In this document: piece by piece, positions 50,640 through 59,026 of the stretch | How the letters are laid out: every line of letters starts with the position of its first letter | Numbering within the stretch: position 1 is the stretch's first letter | Assembly (NCBI RefSeq): GCF_002631185.1 | Contig: NZ_PDNU01000007.1 | Location: 1 to 64,000 of the forward strand | From: Teichococcus rhizosphaerae | Lineage (GTDB): Bacteria; Pseudomonadota; Alphaproteobacteria; Acetobacterales; Acetobacteraceae | DNA length: 64,000 nucleotides | Reading direction: 5' to 3' | Made by a program: the position numbers and the translations under genes | The notes under the pieces: generated by a model | What the model saw: only the letters and a program-made list of their open reading frames with translations | What the model was told of the DNA's origin: nothing | Database searches by the model: none

Positions 50640-50653
50640 GCCCCCGCCCTCAC

Positions 50654-50761
50654 GCCCGGCGCGCGGGCGCCCCACCTCATGCCCGGCGCGCAGGCGCCCC
50701 ACCTCATGCCCGGCGCGCAGGCGCCCCACCTCATGCCAGAGGCGCGGGCGCCCCAACCCCA
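50654..50761 (+). repeat. four tandem copies of a 27-bp repeat
   Basis: Contiguous 27-bp units at 50654, 50681, 50708 and 50735; units 1-3 differ by one base and unit 4 is degenerate. Each holds GGCGCCCC and CTCAT. The complementary strand of this array strongly resembles the 7460-7540 array (GCGCCG, then GGCATGA or GCATGA, then GGCGCC). It occupies nearly all of the 156-bp gap between convergent genes. No spacers, so not a CRISPR. Confidence 0.9.
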
Positions 50762-50795: not shown

Positions 50796-51701
50796 TCACT
50801 TCGCCCCCGGCTTCTGCCGCCGCCCTGGCGCTTTCGGCTGCTGCCCCAGCATCGCCCGCACCCGCCCCTCGGCGCCCTTCATCAGCTCCGGGATCACCTC
50901 GGCCTCGGGGAGGTTCCTCCAGTACTTCTTGGGCATCTCGGCGCGCATGGCATCCGGCTTCAGCCGGGCGGGGTTGAAGATGCTGGCGAAGTAGGTGCGC
51001 CACAGATCCTCCGCCGCGTCCTCGGCCGGCGCGTCGGCGCGGCGGGCGCCAAGGGTGAAGGCGAGCGCCGCGCCATCCCAGTGGGCGCAGCGGCGCGGCG
51101 TCAGGATCGACCAGCGCAGGATGGCGAAGCGCCGCACGAAGAAGCCCGCCTCCGCCTCGACGATGTGGTGCTCCGGCTCGAACCAGGCGACGGAGCGCGG
51201 CCCCTCGGCCGTGTCGATCTCCCGGAAGCGGAGAAAGGCGTGCATCTTGTGCGCGTCCCGCCGCACGGCGCGGGCCATGGCGCCAAGGCGCGCCATGCGC
51301 GGCTCGGTCGGGGTGCGCAGCAGGCCGGGGCGGGCGCGGGCGTCCCACAACAGGGAATGGAGCAGCGCGAAGCGCTCCCGGTCGGCATGGCGCACGGCCA
51401 GCTCGGCCATCTCCACGAAGTCGCGCGGCACCGCGAGGGGCGGGCCCACCGCATCCGGCGGCGGCGGGCCGGTGAAGAGGCCGGGCGGGTCCTCCGGGGT
51501 GCGCCATTCCACCGCCTCGGGCGGAATGGCCGCCGCGAGCAGCTTCCGCGCCGCGGCGCGCCAGGCGGCGAAATCCGCGTAGGAGGGAAGCAGGACGGTG
51601 AACGTCTCCGGCGCGGCGCGGCCGGCCCCCGCCCCGCCGGCTTCCCCCCCCTCCCGGGTGCCGGCGGCGTCCTCCGGCGGGCCGGGCTGGCCACGCGTCA
51701 C
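50796..51701 (-). CDS. DUF4130 / TIGR03915 family DNA-metabolism protein
   Basis: A 301-residue member of the TIGR03915/DUF4130 family, which is genetically linked to a radical-SAM protein and often to, or fused with, UdgX-type uracil-DNA glycosylases. Core segments: FVEMAELAVRHADRERFALL, DAHKMHAFLRFREI, WFEPEHHIVEAEAGFFVRRF and DLWRTYFASIFNPARLKPDA with MPKKYWRNLPEA. There is no glycosylase domain in this copy. The first 30 residues are low-complexity. The GTG start overlaps the radical-SAM stop (GTGA), indicating a two-gene operon. The biochemical function is unknown; the family is assumed to act in DNA repair. Confidence 0.85.
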   Translation of the reverse strand: MTRGQPGPPEDAAGTREGGEAGGAGAGRAAPETFTVLLPSYADFAAWRAAARKLLAAAIPPEAVEWRTPEDPPGLFTGPPPPDAVGPPLAVPRDFVEMAELAVRHADRERFALLHSLLWDARARPGLLRTPTEPRMARLGAMARAVRRDAHKMHAFLRFREIDTAEGPRSVAWFEPEHHIVEAEAGFFVRRFAILRWSILTPRRCAHWDGAALAFTLGARRADAPAEDAAEDLWRTYFASIFNPARLKPDAMRAEMPKKYWRNLPEAEVIPELMKGAEGRVRAMLGQQPKAPGRRQKPGAK

Positions 51702-52957
51702 GGGAACAGCGAAAGCTGGCGCGGCCTGGCCTGGGCGCCGAGGCCGGCCGGCGCGGTCAGCATGGCGCGCAGGCGGGGCGAGTCCAGCAGGCCCGGGGCG
51801 GCGCGATGGTCGGGCGCCAGCAGGAAGGGCGCGACCTTGCGCAGCGGCACGCGCAGCCGCGCCAGATCGGCCAGCCGCACCCGGCCTTCCTGGCGCGCGG
51901 CGAGGATGCGGTCCACGTTGCGCGCGCCAAGGCCCGGCACCCGCAGCAGCAGCTCGCGCGGGGCGGCGTTGATGTCCACGGGAAAGACGGCGCGGTGCTT
52001 CAGCGCCCAGGCCAGCTTGGGGTCGATCTCCAGGTCCAGCATGCCGCCCTCGCCGCCCGAGAGAATTTCCTCCGTGCCGAAGCCGTAGAAGCGCAGCAGC
52101 CAGTCCGCCTGGTACAGCCGGTGCTCGCGCAGCAGCGGCGGCGGCGCCGGCGGCAGCAGGCTGGATGCCTCGGGGATCGGCGAGTAGCCGGAATAATAGA
52201 CCCGGCGCAGCCCGTACTTCTCGTAAAGCTCGGCCCCCTTGCCGAGGATGCTCCGGTCGTCGCTGTCATCGGCGCCGACGATCATCTGCGTGGACTGCCC
52301 GGCCGGCGCGAAGCGCGGCGGCGCGGCGCGGCGAGCGGTGCGCTTCGCCTCCCTCGCCTCGGCGATGCGGGAGGAGAGCTGCTGCATGGCGCCGCCGATG
52401 GCGGGCAGGTCCTTCTCGGGGGCCAGCCGCTTCAGGCTCGCCACCTGTGGCAGCTCCACATTGATCGAGAGCCGGTCCGCCCAGCGCCCCGCCTCGGCCA
52501 GCAGCTCCGGCGCGGCCTCGGGGATGGTCTTGAGGTGGATGTAGCCGAGGAAGCCATGCTCCTCCCGCAGCGTGCGCGCCACGCGGATGAGCTGCTCTAT
52601 CGTGTAATCCGGGCTGCGGATGATGCCGGAGGAGAGGAACAGCCCCTCGATGTAGTTGCGCCGGTAGAAGGCCAGCGTCAGCTTCACCAGCTCGGCCACG
52701 GTGAAGCGGGCGCGCGGCACGTTGGAGGTGGCGCGGTTGATGCAGTAGGCGCAGTCGAACACGCAGGCATTGGTCAGCAGCACCTTCAGCAGCGAGATGC
52801 AGCGGCCATCCGGCGCATAGGCGTGGCAGATGCCCATGCCCTCCGTGCTGCCGAGCCCGCCCGCGCGCGAATCCCGCTTCTCCGTGCCCGAGGAGGCGCA
52901 GGAGGCGTCGTACTTGGCGGCATCGGCAAGCAGGGCGAGCTTGGCACGGAGGTCCAT
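51698..52957 (-). CDS. putative DNA modification/repair radical SAM protein (TIGR03916 type)
   Basis: A 419-residue radical-SAM protein of the family linked to uracil-DNA glycosylase genes. The N-terminus DLRAKLALLADAAKYDASCA is family-typical. The [4Fe-4S] motif is C65/C69/C72 (NACVFDCAYCINRA). A C-terminal helix-hairpin-helix DNA-binding region lies at about 327-370 (AAPRELLLRVPGLGARNVDR). The last six residues are QLSLFP (414-419), matching the beta-clamp-binding consensus QL[SD]LF. Start ATG 52957 (a TTG two codons earlier is possible). A SOS box overlaps its promoter 20 bp upstream. First gene of an operon with the DUF4130 protein. Confidence 0.9.
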   Translation of the reverse strand: MDLRAKLALLADAAKYDASCASSGTEKRDSRAGGLGSTEGMGICHAYAPDGRCISLLKVLLTNACVFDCAYCINRATSNVPRARFTVAELVKLTLAFYRRNYIEGLFLSSGIIRSPDYTIEQLIRVARTLREEHGFLGYIHLKTIPEAAPELLAEAGRWADRLSINVELPQVASLKRLAPEKDLPAIGGAMQQLSSRIAEAREAKRTARRAAPPRFAPAGQSTQMIVGADDSDDRSILGKGAELYEKYGLRRVYYSGYSPIPEASSLLPPAPPPLLREHRLYQADWLLRFYGFGTEEILSGGEGGMLDLEIDPKLAWALKHRAVFPVDINAAPRELLLRVPGLGARNVDRILAARQEGRVRLADLARLRVPLRKVAPFLLAPDHRAAPGLLDSPRLRAMLTAPAGLGAQARPRQLSLFP

Positions 52958-52977
52958 GGGCAATGGTCCGAGGTTTC

Positions 52978-52992
52978 GTTCCCTATGTGTTC
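52978..52992. promoter_or_regulatory. alphaproteobacterial LexA (SOS) box
   Basis: GTTC (52978-52981), seven bases, GTTC (52989-52992): an exact match to the GTTC-N7-GTTC LexA site established for Alphaproteobacteria. On the coding strand of the radical-SAM gene it reads GAAC-N7-GAAC and overlaps the predicted -10, 20 bp before the ATG. Confidence 0.8.
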
Positions 52993-53011
52993 ATGAGCGG
53001 CCGGATGCCAA
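52983..53011 (-). promoter_or_regulatory. promoter of the radical-SAM/DUF4130 operon
   Basis: On the minus strand, TTGGCA (53006-53011), a 17-bp spacer and ACATAG (52983-52988); with an 18-bp spacer the -10 is CATAGG. LexA on the overlapping box would block the -10. Upstream (53014-53038) lies an 8-bp inverted repeat of unknown role. The rest of the 211-bp gap shows nothing else clear. Confidence 0.55.
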
Positions 53012-53168
53012 GCCCCTTCGCGGAACCGTGGCGAAGGGCAAATTCGTTCTTCCGATGAAACGTTCTGGTGGCTGCCCAGCCGGCTCGGGCGGCCCGGCAC
53101 CTCCGGATGGTCCCTGGCCCGCTTTTCCCCAACCGGCCGCGCTCGATCCGCCCCTTCCGGCCATAGCC

Positions 53169-54338
53169 TCAGCGCAGCAGCGCCGGCAGCAGCGCGTCCA
53201 GCCGGAGCCGCCCTTCCCAGGTCGCGGCGAGCCGCCCTTCCGGGGTCCAGGCCAGGTAGTCCTCGTCGAGGCAGGCGGCCAGCATGGCCGGGTCCACCGC
53301 GTCCGCCAGCGACAGGCCGGTCCGCGCCTGGAGCCGCGCCGGGTCCACCCCCTCGGACAGGCGCAGCCCCATCAGCAGCGCCTCGCGCGCGCGGTCGGTG
53401 GGGGAGAGGGTCTCGGTGGCGGTGACGGCGTGGCCCTGCGCCTCGACGCGCGCCAGCCATTCCTCGGGGCCGCGGTGCCGGCGCGCCGCCACCAGCCCCT
53501 CGCGCAGCGTCAGCCGCTGATGCGCGCCGGCGCCGATGCCGAGATAGTCGCCATAGCGCCAATAGGCGAGGTTGTGCCGGCTTTCCGAGCCCGGCCTGGC
53601 GTAGTTCGAGACCTCATAGGGCAGCAGGCCGAAGCGCGCCGCCTCCTCGCCGGTGGCGAAGTAGAGGGCGGCGGCCTCCTCCCCCTCCGGCAGGGCGAAG
53701 GCACCGCGCGCATGCTCGGTGGCGAAGCGCGTGCCGGGCTCGATGGTGAGCTGGTAGAGCGAGAGGTGGTCGGCCGCCAGCGCCAGGGCGCGCCGCAGCT
53801 CGGCGCGCCACTCGGCCACCGCCTGTCCCGGCCGGGCATAGATCAGGTCGAAGGACAAGCGCGGGAACAGGCCGCGCGCCGCCTCCAGCGCGGCGATGGC
53901 CTGCCCGGCGTCGTGCCTGCGGCCGAGGAAGCCCAGCGCCGCGTCGTTCAGCGCCTGCACGCCGAGGCTGGCGCGGTTCACCCCGGCGGCGCGGATCTCG
54001 GCCAGGCGCGAAACCTCCACGCTGGTCGGGTTGGCCTCCAGCGTGATCTCGATATCCGCCAGGGGCGGGAAAAGCCGGGTGGCGTCGGCGACGATGCCGG
54101 CCACCACCTCCGGCGGCATCAGGCTCGGCGTGCCGCCGCCGAAGAAGATGGAGGCGAGCGGCCGCCCGCCCTGCCCGTCCGCCTCCAGCCGCGCCGCCTC
54201 GAAGGCCAGCTCCCGCCGCAGGGCGGCGCCAAAGCGCGCCGCGTCCACCCGCTCCCGCACATGGCTGTTGAAGTCGCAATAGGGGCATTTGGCGGCGCAG
54301 AAGGGCCAGTGGACGTAGAGGGCGATCGGCTCGGGCAT
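53169..54338 (-). CDS. hemW: radical SAM heme chaperone HemW
   Basis: A 389-residue HemW that transfers heme to respiratory proteins; it was formerly annotated as oxygen-independent coproporphyrinogen oxidase. The cluster motif is C14/C18/C21 (WPFCAAKCPYCDFNSH), followed by IFFGGGTPSLMP, EANPTSVE and GVNRASLGVQA. The extra N-terminal residues that mark true HemN are absent, supporting HemW. The HemN C-terminal domain is present (about 300-385). Start ATG 54338. Confidence 0.93.
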   Translation of the reverse strand: MPEPIALYVHWPFCAAKCPYCDFNSHVRERVDAARFGAALRRELAFEAARLEADGQGGRPLASIFFGGGTPSLMPPEVVAGIVADATRLFPPLADIEITLEANPTSVEVSRLAEIRAAGVNRASLGVQALNDAALGFLGRRHDAGQAIAALEAARGLFPRLSFDLIYARPGQAVAEWRAELRRALALAADHLSLYQLTIEPGTRFATEHARGAFALPEGEEAAALYFATGEEAARFGLLPYEVSNYARPGSESRHNLAYWRYGDYLGIGAGAHQRLTLREGLVAARRHRGPEEWLARVEAQGHAVTATETLSPTDRAREALLMGLRLSEGVDPARLQARTGLSLADAVDPAMLAACLDEDYLAWTPEGRLAATWEGRLRLDALLPALLR

Positions 54339-57913: not shown

Positions 57914-59026
57914 ATGAGCCGCCCCATGATGGCCGACACCGTCTCCGCCGCCCGCACCGTCACGCTGCAGTTCGACGACAACGCGCTGCTGCCGCTGCTC
58001 TATGGCGAGCACGACCGGCACCTGGCCCAGATCGAGCAGCGGATGGGGGTGCGGCTGGCCAGCCGCGGCAACCGCCTCTCGATCACCGGCTCGGCCGAGG
58101 GCACCTCGGTCGCGGAGGCGGCGCTGCGCAGCCTGTGGCGGCAACTGGAACGCGGGGAGAACGTGGCGATGCCGGAAGTGGAGGCCGCGATGCGCCTGGC
58201 CCAGCGCCGCGCCGACGCGCCGCGGGAAAGCCTGCCGGACACGCCCGAGCCGCGCCTGCCGCTGTCCGACCTGCCGGCGATCCGCACCAAGAAGGGTGCC
58301 ATCGCGCCCCGCAGCCACGCCCAGGCCGACTACATGGACCTGCTGGCGCGGACCGACATGGTGTTCGGCATCGGCCCCGCCGGCACGGGCAAGACCTACC
58401 TCGCCGTGGCGCAGGGTGTCGCGATGCTGATGGCCGGGCGCGTGGACCGTATCGTGCTGTCCCGCCCCGCCGTGGAGGCGGGCGAGCGGCTGGGCTTCCT
58501 GCCGGGTGACATGAAGGAGAAGGTAGACCCCTATCTCCGCCCGCTCTACGACGCCCTGCACGACATGATGCCGGCCGACCAGGTGCAGCGCCGCATCGTC
58601 TCGGGCGAGATCGAGATCGCGCCGCTGGCCTTCATGCGCGGCCGGACGCTGGCCCATTGCTACGCCATCCTCGACGAGGCGCAGAACACCACCCCCGCCC
58701 AGATCAAGATGTTCCTCACCCGCATGGGCGAGGGCACGCGCATGGTGATCACCGGCGATCCCACCCAGGTGGACCTCCCCCCCGGCCAGAAATCCGGGCT
58801 GGTGGAGGCTCTCTCCGTGCTGGACGGGGTGCAGGGGATCGGCGTCTCGCGCTTCGGCGAGCAGGACGTGGTGCGGCATCCGCTGGTGGCGCGCATCGTC
58901 GCCGCCTATAATCGCGCCGATCAGTTGGCCCACGGCGCCGCCAGGACGGGCGGGCCGGGCGCGGCCGGCGCCGGGACGGAAACGCTCCGTCGCGGCAGGA
59001 AGGAGAATGATGGAACCGGGAAGTAG
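57914..59026 (+). CDS. PhoH-like ATPase (YbeZ)
   Basis: A 370-residue PhoH/YbeZ protein, a P-loop NTPase working with YbeY in rRNA and ribosome maturation. Walker A is [16 protein letters not shown] (near residue 153), then [18 protein letters not shown], Walker [21 protein letters not shown], and [13 protein letters not shown]-like N-terminal region (about 15-90) is present. Start could be ATG 57914, 57926 or 57929, or a TTG at 57869 overlapping the miaB stop. The 3' end overlaps ybeY. Confidence 0.93.

Follow-up and report, generated by a model that had tools for sequence, protein, structure and literature searches.

A radical-SAM/DUF4130 gene pair behind a conserved LexA-type operator in Teichococcus rhizosphaerae: a candidate clamp-directed DNA repair unit

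What does a radical-SAM protein do when its gene overlaps that of a DUF4130 protein, stands behind a LexA-type operator and has no uracil-DNA glycosylase (UDG) gene adjoining it? The question is raised by a locus of Teichococcus rhizosphaerae (Acetobacteraceae; assembly GCF_002631185.1) within the first 64,000 nucleotides of contig NZ_PDNU01000007.1. This whole stretch is referred to below as the window. The genes and the operator are as follows.

50796-51701, minus strand: TIGR03915/DUF4130 protein, 301 aa, GTG start at 51701 (TIGR03915: 197.4 bits, cut-off 112.25)
51698-52957, minus strand: TIGR03916 radical-SAM protein, 419 aa, ATG start at 52957 (551.8 bits, cut-off 343.5)
52978-52992, plus strand: LexA-type operator GTTC-N7-GTTC, exact match (GTTCCCTATGTGTTC), 20 bases before the ATG

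The radical-SAM protein belongs to the TIGR03916 family, of which it covers model positions 2-399 of 415 (NCBIfam), and the DUF4130 protein is in addition a member of PF13566 (128.3 bits, cut-off 27). The structure models of the two proteins have pLDDT values of 84 and 88, respectively. Both genes lie on the minus strand and overlap by GTGA at 51698-51701, where the DUF4130 start stands over the radical-SAM stop; with these coordinates and the TIGR03916 and TIGR03915 scores, the overlapping pair lies where the initial annotation had placed it. The next gene upstream of the pair, hemW, is transcribed in the same sense, whereas the downstream neighbor, a PhoR-like kinase gene, is convergent. TIGR03916 presumably corresponds to COG4277. 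No established chemistry was found for these families in the literature searched, as the initial annotation had stated, and the names TIGR03915 and TIGR03916 were not found in the open-access literature searched.

The further statement that the two families are known only through linkage to UDG genes no longer holds, and SOS control of the radical-SAM pair is not new, as it has been proposed before in other bacteria. In Clostridium acetobutylicum, LexA control was proposed in 2013 for the operon CAC3343-CAC3344, in which a radical-SAM "DNA modification/repair" gene with a predicted LexA site precedes a gene without assigned function (PMC3828012). That operon differs from the pair described here in its Gram-positive host, and the relevant passages of the paper mention no clamp peptide. 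In Bacteroidetes, SOS/LexA control of a UDG/COG4277 operon was proposed in 2021 in a paper that also cites reports of such control from Caulobacter (Alphaproteobacteria) and Verrucomicrobia (PMC8565304). Although this COG1573-COG4277 operon likewise pairs COG4277 with a second gene under the SOS regulator, the partner described there is a UDG-family protein, whereas the partner here is a DUF4130 protein without a UDG domain and UdgX lies elsewhere in the genome. DUF4130 itself has been linked to SplB-like radical-SAM and UDG genes and called a predicted mutagenesis-related enzyme (PMC3765255). This is the same association, but it was proposed from gene neighborhoods, and the relevant passages contain neither operator nor clamp evidence. 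The radical-SAM gene has also been described as raised in drying Acinetobacter (PMC13130816). As read from the sequences, four features are new here: the beta-clamp-type tail of the radical-SAM protein, the extra invariant cysteines before its CX3CX2C motif, the dependence of DUF4130 on the radical-SAM gene and, unlike most relatives, the absence of a UdgX domain from the pair.

The sequence GTTC-N7-GTTC, which we take to be the alphaproteobacterial LexA motif, had been claimed to stand as an exact box 20 bp before the start codon and is found there; in the operon direction it reads GAACACATAGGGAAC. The window contains two exact matches (0.36 expected; at least two in 4 of 100 shuffles), and the second, at 58148, scores 4.9 against 21.1 for the operon box with a matrix built from ortholog boxes. 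Genome-wide, the pattern has 56 exact matches and its reversed control has 32, so that the motif taken alone is modest evidence and its conservation decides. The operon box ranks seventh among these 56 with the matrix trained on the orthologs' boxes, which favors boxes like it. The genome encodes LexA, and its core SOS genes carry the same box: recA, uvrA, parC, parE and lexA each have an exact match at their start or ahead of it.

The box is kept in relatives. The radical-SAM gene is present in 24 of the 57 relatives searched (in one, G001, as a fragment only), with weak matches in three more, and the exact box stands near the start in 21 of the 24. The pair is not essential, because 33 of the 57 relatives have either no match or merely a weak one. 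From a scan of a genome collection, the best 80 of 593 loci were kept, of which 67 have the exact box within 200 bases. Once ten loci titled as other groups are left out, the figure is 67 of 70; these 70 count as alphaproteobacterial in that their titles name no other group, two of them saying just Proteobacteria or Pseudomonadota. Over the 70 loci, the other 11 letter orders occur zero to five times and other spacers zero times or once. The three box-less loci are L122, L124 and L162, and a one-mismatch version can be recognized by eye in L122 and L162. L124 and L020 have identical upstream sequence, are on contigs of equal length and probably represent one genome. The locus set and the genome sets may overlap further, so their counts are not summed.

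In the 59 loci that have the box in the operon sense, the seven-base spacer resembles TATAAT and TTG is most frequent 18 bases upstream (18 of 59, against 6 at the runner-up position), which places the operator over the -10 region of the family promoter. In the window, the corresponding letters are ACATAGG, a poor match, and a strict sigma-70 scan of 52900-53200 finds no promoter. The claim that the -10 element lies under the LexA box thus holds for the family consensus and not for the letters of the window.

Outside the class the type of operator depends on the bacterial group. Among 37 such loci (8 from beta- and gammaproteobacteria identified by name, the rest from 29 other genomes of the phylum), 29 have CTGT-N8-[AC]CAG, presumably the E. 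coli-type LexA box; no other spacer length between 4 and 12 gives a match, and the shuffled rate is 0.005. Six of the 37 have the palindrome TCTCA-N5-TGAGA instead, three of these being Xanthomonas, Stenotrophomonas and Pseudoxanthomonas. Elsewhere in two genomes, inspection of the neighboring ORFs found no SOS gene adjoining the other copies of this sequence. The remaining two (L200 and L253) have neither sequence and no recognized operator. Further afield, each of the two Verrucomicrobia loci has TGTTC-N4-GAAC, starting 13-15 bases ahead of the start codon. A pair of CGAAC-N4-GTTC-type boxes is found at one of two gut loci; at the second, as at an Acinetobacter locus, the scan finds none of its operator types. 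Because a LexA-type operator is conserved in place while its type changes with the bacterial group, the pair is predicted to be a LexA-repressed unit. The SOS control put forward in the initial annotation is strongly supported by this conservation under clade-specific operators, and LexA control of the pair can be predicted with near certainty.

The two genes also appear to be bound together in their occurrence. The pair is found in about one fifth of the genomes sampled from the phylum: among 398 genomes, the radical-SAM protein exceeds its cut-off in 84 and DUF4130 in 87, and all 84 have both. Caulobacter vibrioides, for one, gives matches to both families. DUF4130 without the radical-SAM gene is thus limited to 3 of 87 genomes. 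The two surveys (57 relatives and 398 genomes) together gave eight genomes with DUF4130 alone, and in seven of these it is diverged or broken. For reference, 61 DUF4130 domains at radical-SAM loci retain 38-47 of 47 conserved positions (median 46), and 60 of the 61 have at least 6 positions of an eight-position C-terminal signature, against 1-2 in six of the eight DUF4130-alone genomes. Four of the eight (G018, G023, G029 and G030) have only 15-25 of the 47 positions left. G272 and G342 retain 38-39, which falls at the bottom of the reference range, but they have lost the MPxKYWxNLPE segment and keep one or two of the eight signature positions. G126 has a remnant with a stop. In the eighth genome, G255, DUF4130 is intact, with all 47 of 47 positions. 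A search for the radical-SAM gene finds no match in the 1.1 kb of contig upstream or elsewhere at an E-value of up to 0.001; unless the gene was lost to a gap in the assembly, G255 counts as a genuine exception. Two further genomes depart from the usual arrangement. In G377 the radical-SAM gene is accompanied by two copies of DUF4130, one normal and one diverged (25 of 47), and the G001 fragment noted above is a radical-SAM protein reduced to residues 5-158, with the box and DUF4130 kept. By this pattern of loss, the radical-SAM and DUF4130 genes form an apparent single unit in which DUF4130 is the dependent member.

The following features of the radical-SAM protein bear on what this unit may do.

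52742-52765, minus strand: CX3CX2C radical-SAM cluster motif (C65, C69, C72; PF04055), invariant in 65 sequences
52799-52900, minus strand: codons C20 to C53, with C20, C44, C53 and H45 as candidate auxiliary Fe-S site, invariant in 65 sequences
51884-51979, minus strand: helix-hairpin-helix (HHH) motif, residues 327-358 (PF12836, E-value: 6.7e-5; 23.4 bits, below the cut-off of 27)
51704-51718, minus strand: C-terminal QLSLF, a beta-sliding-clamp-type peptide in a tail predicted to be disordered

The three extra cysteines stand before CX3CX2C and, with H45, are also present in four homologs at 43-48% identity; the region from C20 to C53 has low confidence in the structure model. The invariance of C20, C44, C53 and H45 suggests an auxiliary Fe-S cluster.

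At its other end, the protein closes with QLSLF-P, in which QLSLF fits QL[SD]LF, the type that we take to be the beta-clamp peptide consensus. Q414 is invariant in 20 sequences and at least 90% conserved in 65, and the tail (residues 404-419) has a pLDDT below 50 (very low confidence). A clamp-type motif lies within the last 24 residues of 107 of 109 radical-SAM orthologs (the 80 loci of the collection scan and 29 from genomes outside the class). Just 25 of the 109 tails are of the canonical QL[SD]LF kind; the others are of the form Q[LMI]xL[FLW] (56), a six-residue form (8) or a looser form (18), and the two tails without the motif read QLSLI and QLELNS. The peptide is short, and the motif classes were widened after the tails had been inspected, an earlier and narrower pattern having missed 5 of 80. 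As background, the wider classes match 95 of 3339 internal windows, and among DUF4130/UdgX tails 6 of 78. In the narrower test on 80 tails, the shuffled-tail rate was 0.002 for the strict and 0.13 for the loose form. The four homologs at 43-48% identity have QLSLF, QLSFF, QLSLGF or QLALF, at the very end in two and about 8 and 24 residues before the end in the other two. A conserved motif in a flexible tail is what is expected of a predicted beta-clamp client peptide, and action of the radical-SAM and DUF4130 proteins on DNA at the clamp is likely. No report of a radical-SAM protein with a clamp-binding motif was found in the open-access literature.

The proposed model for the pair is as follows. 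LexA bound over the -10 region would repress the operon. Upon DNA damage, RecA filaments would promote cleavage of LexA, and the two overlapping genes would be expressed together. The flexible QLSLF tail of the radical-SAM enzyme would bind the DnaN clamp, bringing the enzyme to gaps or stalled forks, where a 5'-deoxyadenosyl radical, probably assisted by an auxiliary Fe-S cluster at C20/C44/C53, would alter a damaged nucleobase or sugar of the DNA. The dependent partner, DUF4130, may deal with the substrate or with the chemical step that follows. UdgX captures abasic sites that derive from uracil; it would be an accessory domain, fused to DUF4130 in most relatives, and stands outside the pair here. 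The probability that the locus encodes a LexA-induced, clamp-tethered radical DNA repair unit of two dependent partners is put at roughly 0.6. That this unit amounts to a separate repair pathway, in which a clamp-riding radical enzyme and its partner repair or remove a lesion, SOS-induced under the operator type of each host and with UdgX optional, is a more tentative proposal, with chances a little short of even. Together with the additional cysteines and a DUF4130 that depends on its partner gene, the clamp peptide may turn an annotation by linkage into a concrete model of site, cofactors and partner.

An alternative is that the pair serves UdgX, with the radical-SAM and DUF4130 proteins releasing or processing the UdgX-DNA crosslink or the abasic site. 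UdgX bonds covalently to abasic DNA and its physiological role has been called largely unknown (PMC10359453), and the UdgX domain is fused to DUF4130 in most relatives (63 of the 80 loci as scored by script, to which inspection adds 3). UdgX is also matched in all 17 genomes of the genus that were searched, this one included, six of which have the fusion too. Here, however, the 301-aa protein matches TIGR03915 only, with no UdgX fused to it. UdgX stands alone as a separate gene on another contig, has no exact LexA box and is without the cysteines common to four other UdgX domains seen. A UDG match is absent from the locus in 9 of the 80 (5 being left undecided), none stands beside the pair in the window's clade (L009-L017), and DUF4130 is unfused at the two gut loci and the Acinetobacter locus. 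For the crosslinks themselves, RecA-dependent pathways or proteases have been suggested (PMC10359453). Where the radical-SAM gene is missing, decay mostly affects DUF4130, while a UdgX match persists in seven of the eight DUF4130-alone genomes (the four divergent ones, G126, G255 and G272); the G342 stretch has no UdgX match. UdgX thus appears to be dispensable to the pair, and a role of the pair in serving it is rather unlikely.

Direct reversal of a UV thymine lesion, in the manner of spore photoproduct lyase, would also be a radical-SAM reaction on damaged DNA. SplB (COG1533) is, like the present protein, a radical-SAM protein of DNA repair with SOS links in several groups: its gene splB is predicted to be under SOS control in alpha- and betaproteobacteria, and for a number of species such control is stated (PMC3323433, PMC8565304). 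It is nevertheless of another family. In NCBIfam, searched at an E-value threshold of 0.001, the protein matches TIGR03916 only and COG1533 is not matched, a PDB sequence search at an E-value of 0.01 finds no relative, and spore photoproduct lyase is absent from the 50 top fold matches listed, among which are HydE, MgmA, viperin and MiaB. SplB and COG4277 are moreover listed as separate genes in PMC8565304. Taken together, these results make a lyase-like reversal quite improbable.

Compared with the proposed repair unit, a protective or defensive modification of DNA (or of an RNA or protein target), merely co-opted into the SOS regulon, is likewise held to be a poor prospect. Radical-SAM enzymes do often modify RNA, protein or cofactors, and the radical-SAM protein has relatives on a few contigs filed as viral (matches to 10 phage records and relatives on 2 viral contigs). 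Against this reading, PADLOC gives no match at an E-value of 0.01, and the HHH motif, the clamp peptide and the predicted LexA control all point to DNA. The single annotated "phage" record that was inspected has glyS, glyQ and aidB and looks chromosomal, so a phage origin is not adopted. Finally, that the box at 52978-52992 is a chance or non-functional match is hardly credible, for the modest ratio of exact genome matches to control (56 to 32) is outweighed by conservation in 67 of 70 loci and by an operator type that shifts with the group, and the box is accordingly judged, on its orthologs, not to be chance.

Some minor observations concern DUF4130. Its best fold match in the PDB is a PAP phosphatase (E-value: 0.08, TM 0.26) and its best viral fold match has an E-value of 0.03 and a TM of 0.22; because neither match is reliable, no fold is claimed for it. 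A PDB sequence search at an E-value of 1 gave a ribosomal-protein match (E-value: 0.086), which is taken as chance. In the "phage" record with glyS, glyQ and aidB, DUF4130 was missed by tblastn yet adjoins the radical-SAM gene. At one gut locus, the ORF of a Rad3/DinG-like helicase lies 12 bases after DUF4130.

The genome of T. rhizosphaerae (GCF_002631185.1) encodes UdgX, a UDG-family domain that is fused to DUF4130 in most relatives, as a stand-alone gene on a contig other than that of the radical-SAM/DUF4130 gene pair:

L040:1417-2079 (contig C58:5282-5941), stand-alone UdgX

This protein retains the RRLH histidine motif and lacks the cysteines seen in fused UdgX domains of the family (such as those in CRRCPL and CAFWL). 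The CAFWL-type cysteine is also missing from all 22 other UdgX sequences of the genus that were listed. Three stand-alone UdgX proteins, that of T. rhizosphaerae and those of two relatives (L288, L289 and L290), share the C-terminus QG[ST]LPL, which may be a beta-sliding-clamp-type peptide of UdgX's own.

The radical-SAM gene of the pair is truncated in G001, another member of the genus:

L033 (G001:C1:1391235), shortened radical-SAM locus

This locus retains the LexA box and DUF4130, its radical-SAM protein is reduced to residues 5-158 and its match to fused UdgX is split over two frames. Six orthologs (L125, L132, L135, L234, L246 and L257), half of which are named Xanthomonadaceae, share the palindrome TCTCA-N5-TGAGA, which replaces the recognised LexA box types at the operator position.

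A strong LexA-type box, GTTCCTTATGTGTTC, also lies 18 bases 5' of a gene of another kind:

L090:168-1397, minus strand, 410-aa protein of unassigned family

Searches of Pfam, NCBIfam and PADLOC with this protein returned no match, and its sole match is a weak one to a PHROG of unknown function.

On a gut contig (L330:3929-8421), consecutive ORFs encode a radical-SAM protein, DUF4130 and a Rad3/DinG-like helicase. Record CAKLQH020000003.1 (L329) is filed as an Acinetobacter phage; glyS, glyQ and aidB adjoin its gene pair, and it looks chromosomal rather than phage. In the window, short tandem repeats are visible by eye at 50650-50750, between the stop codons of the kinase and DUF4130 genes.
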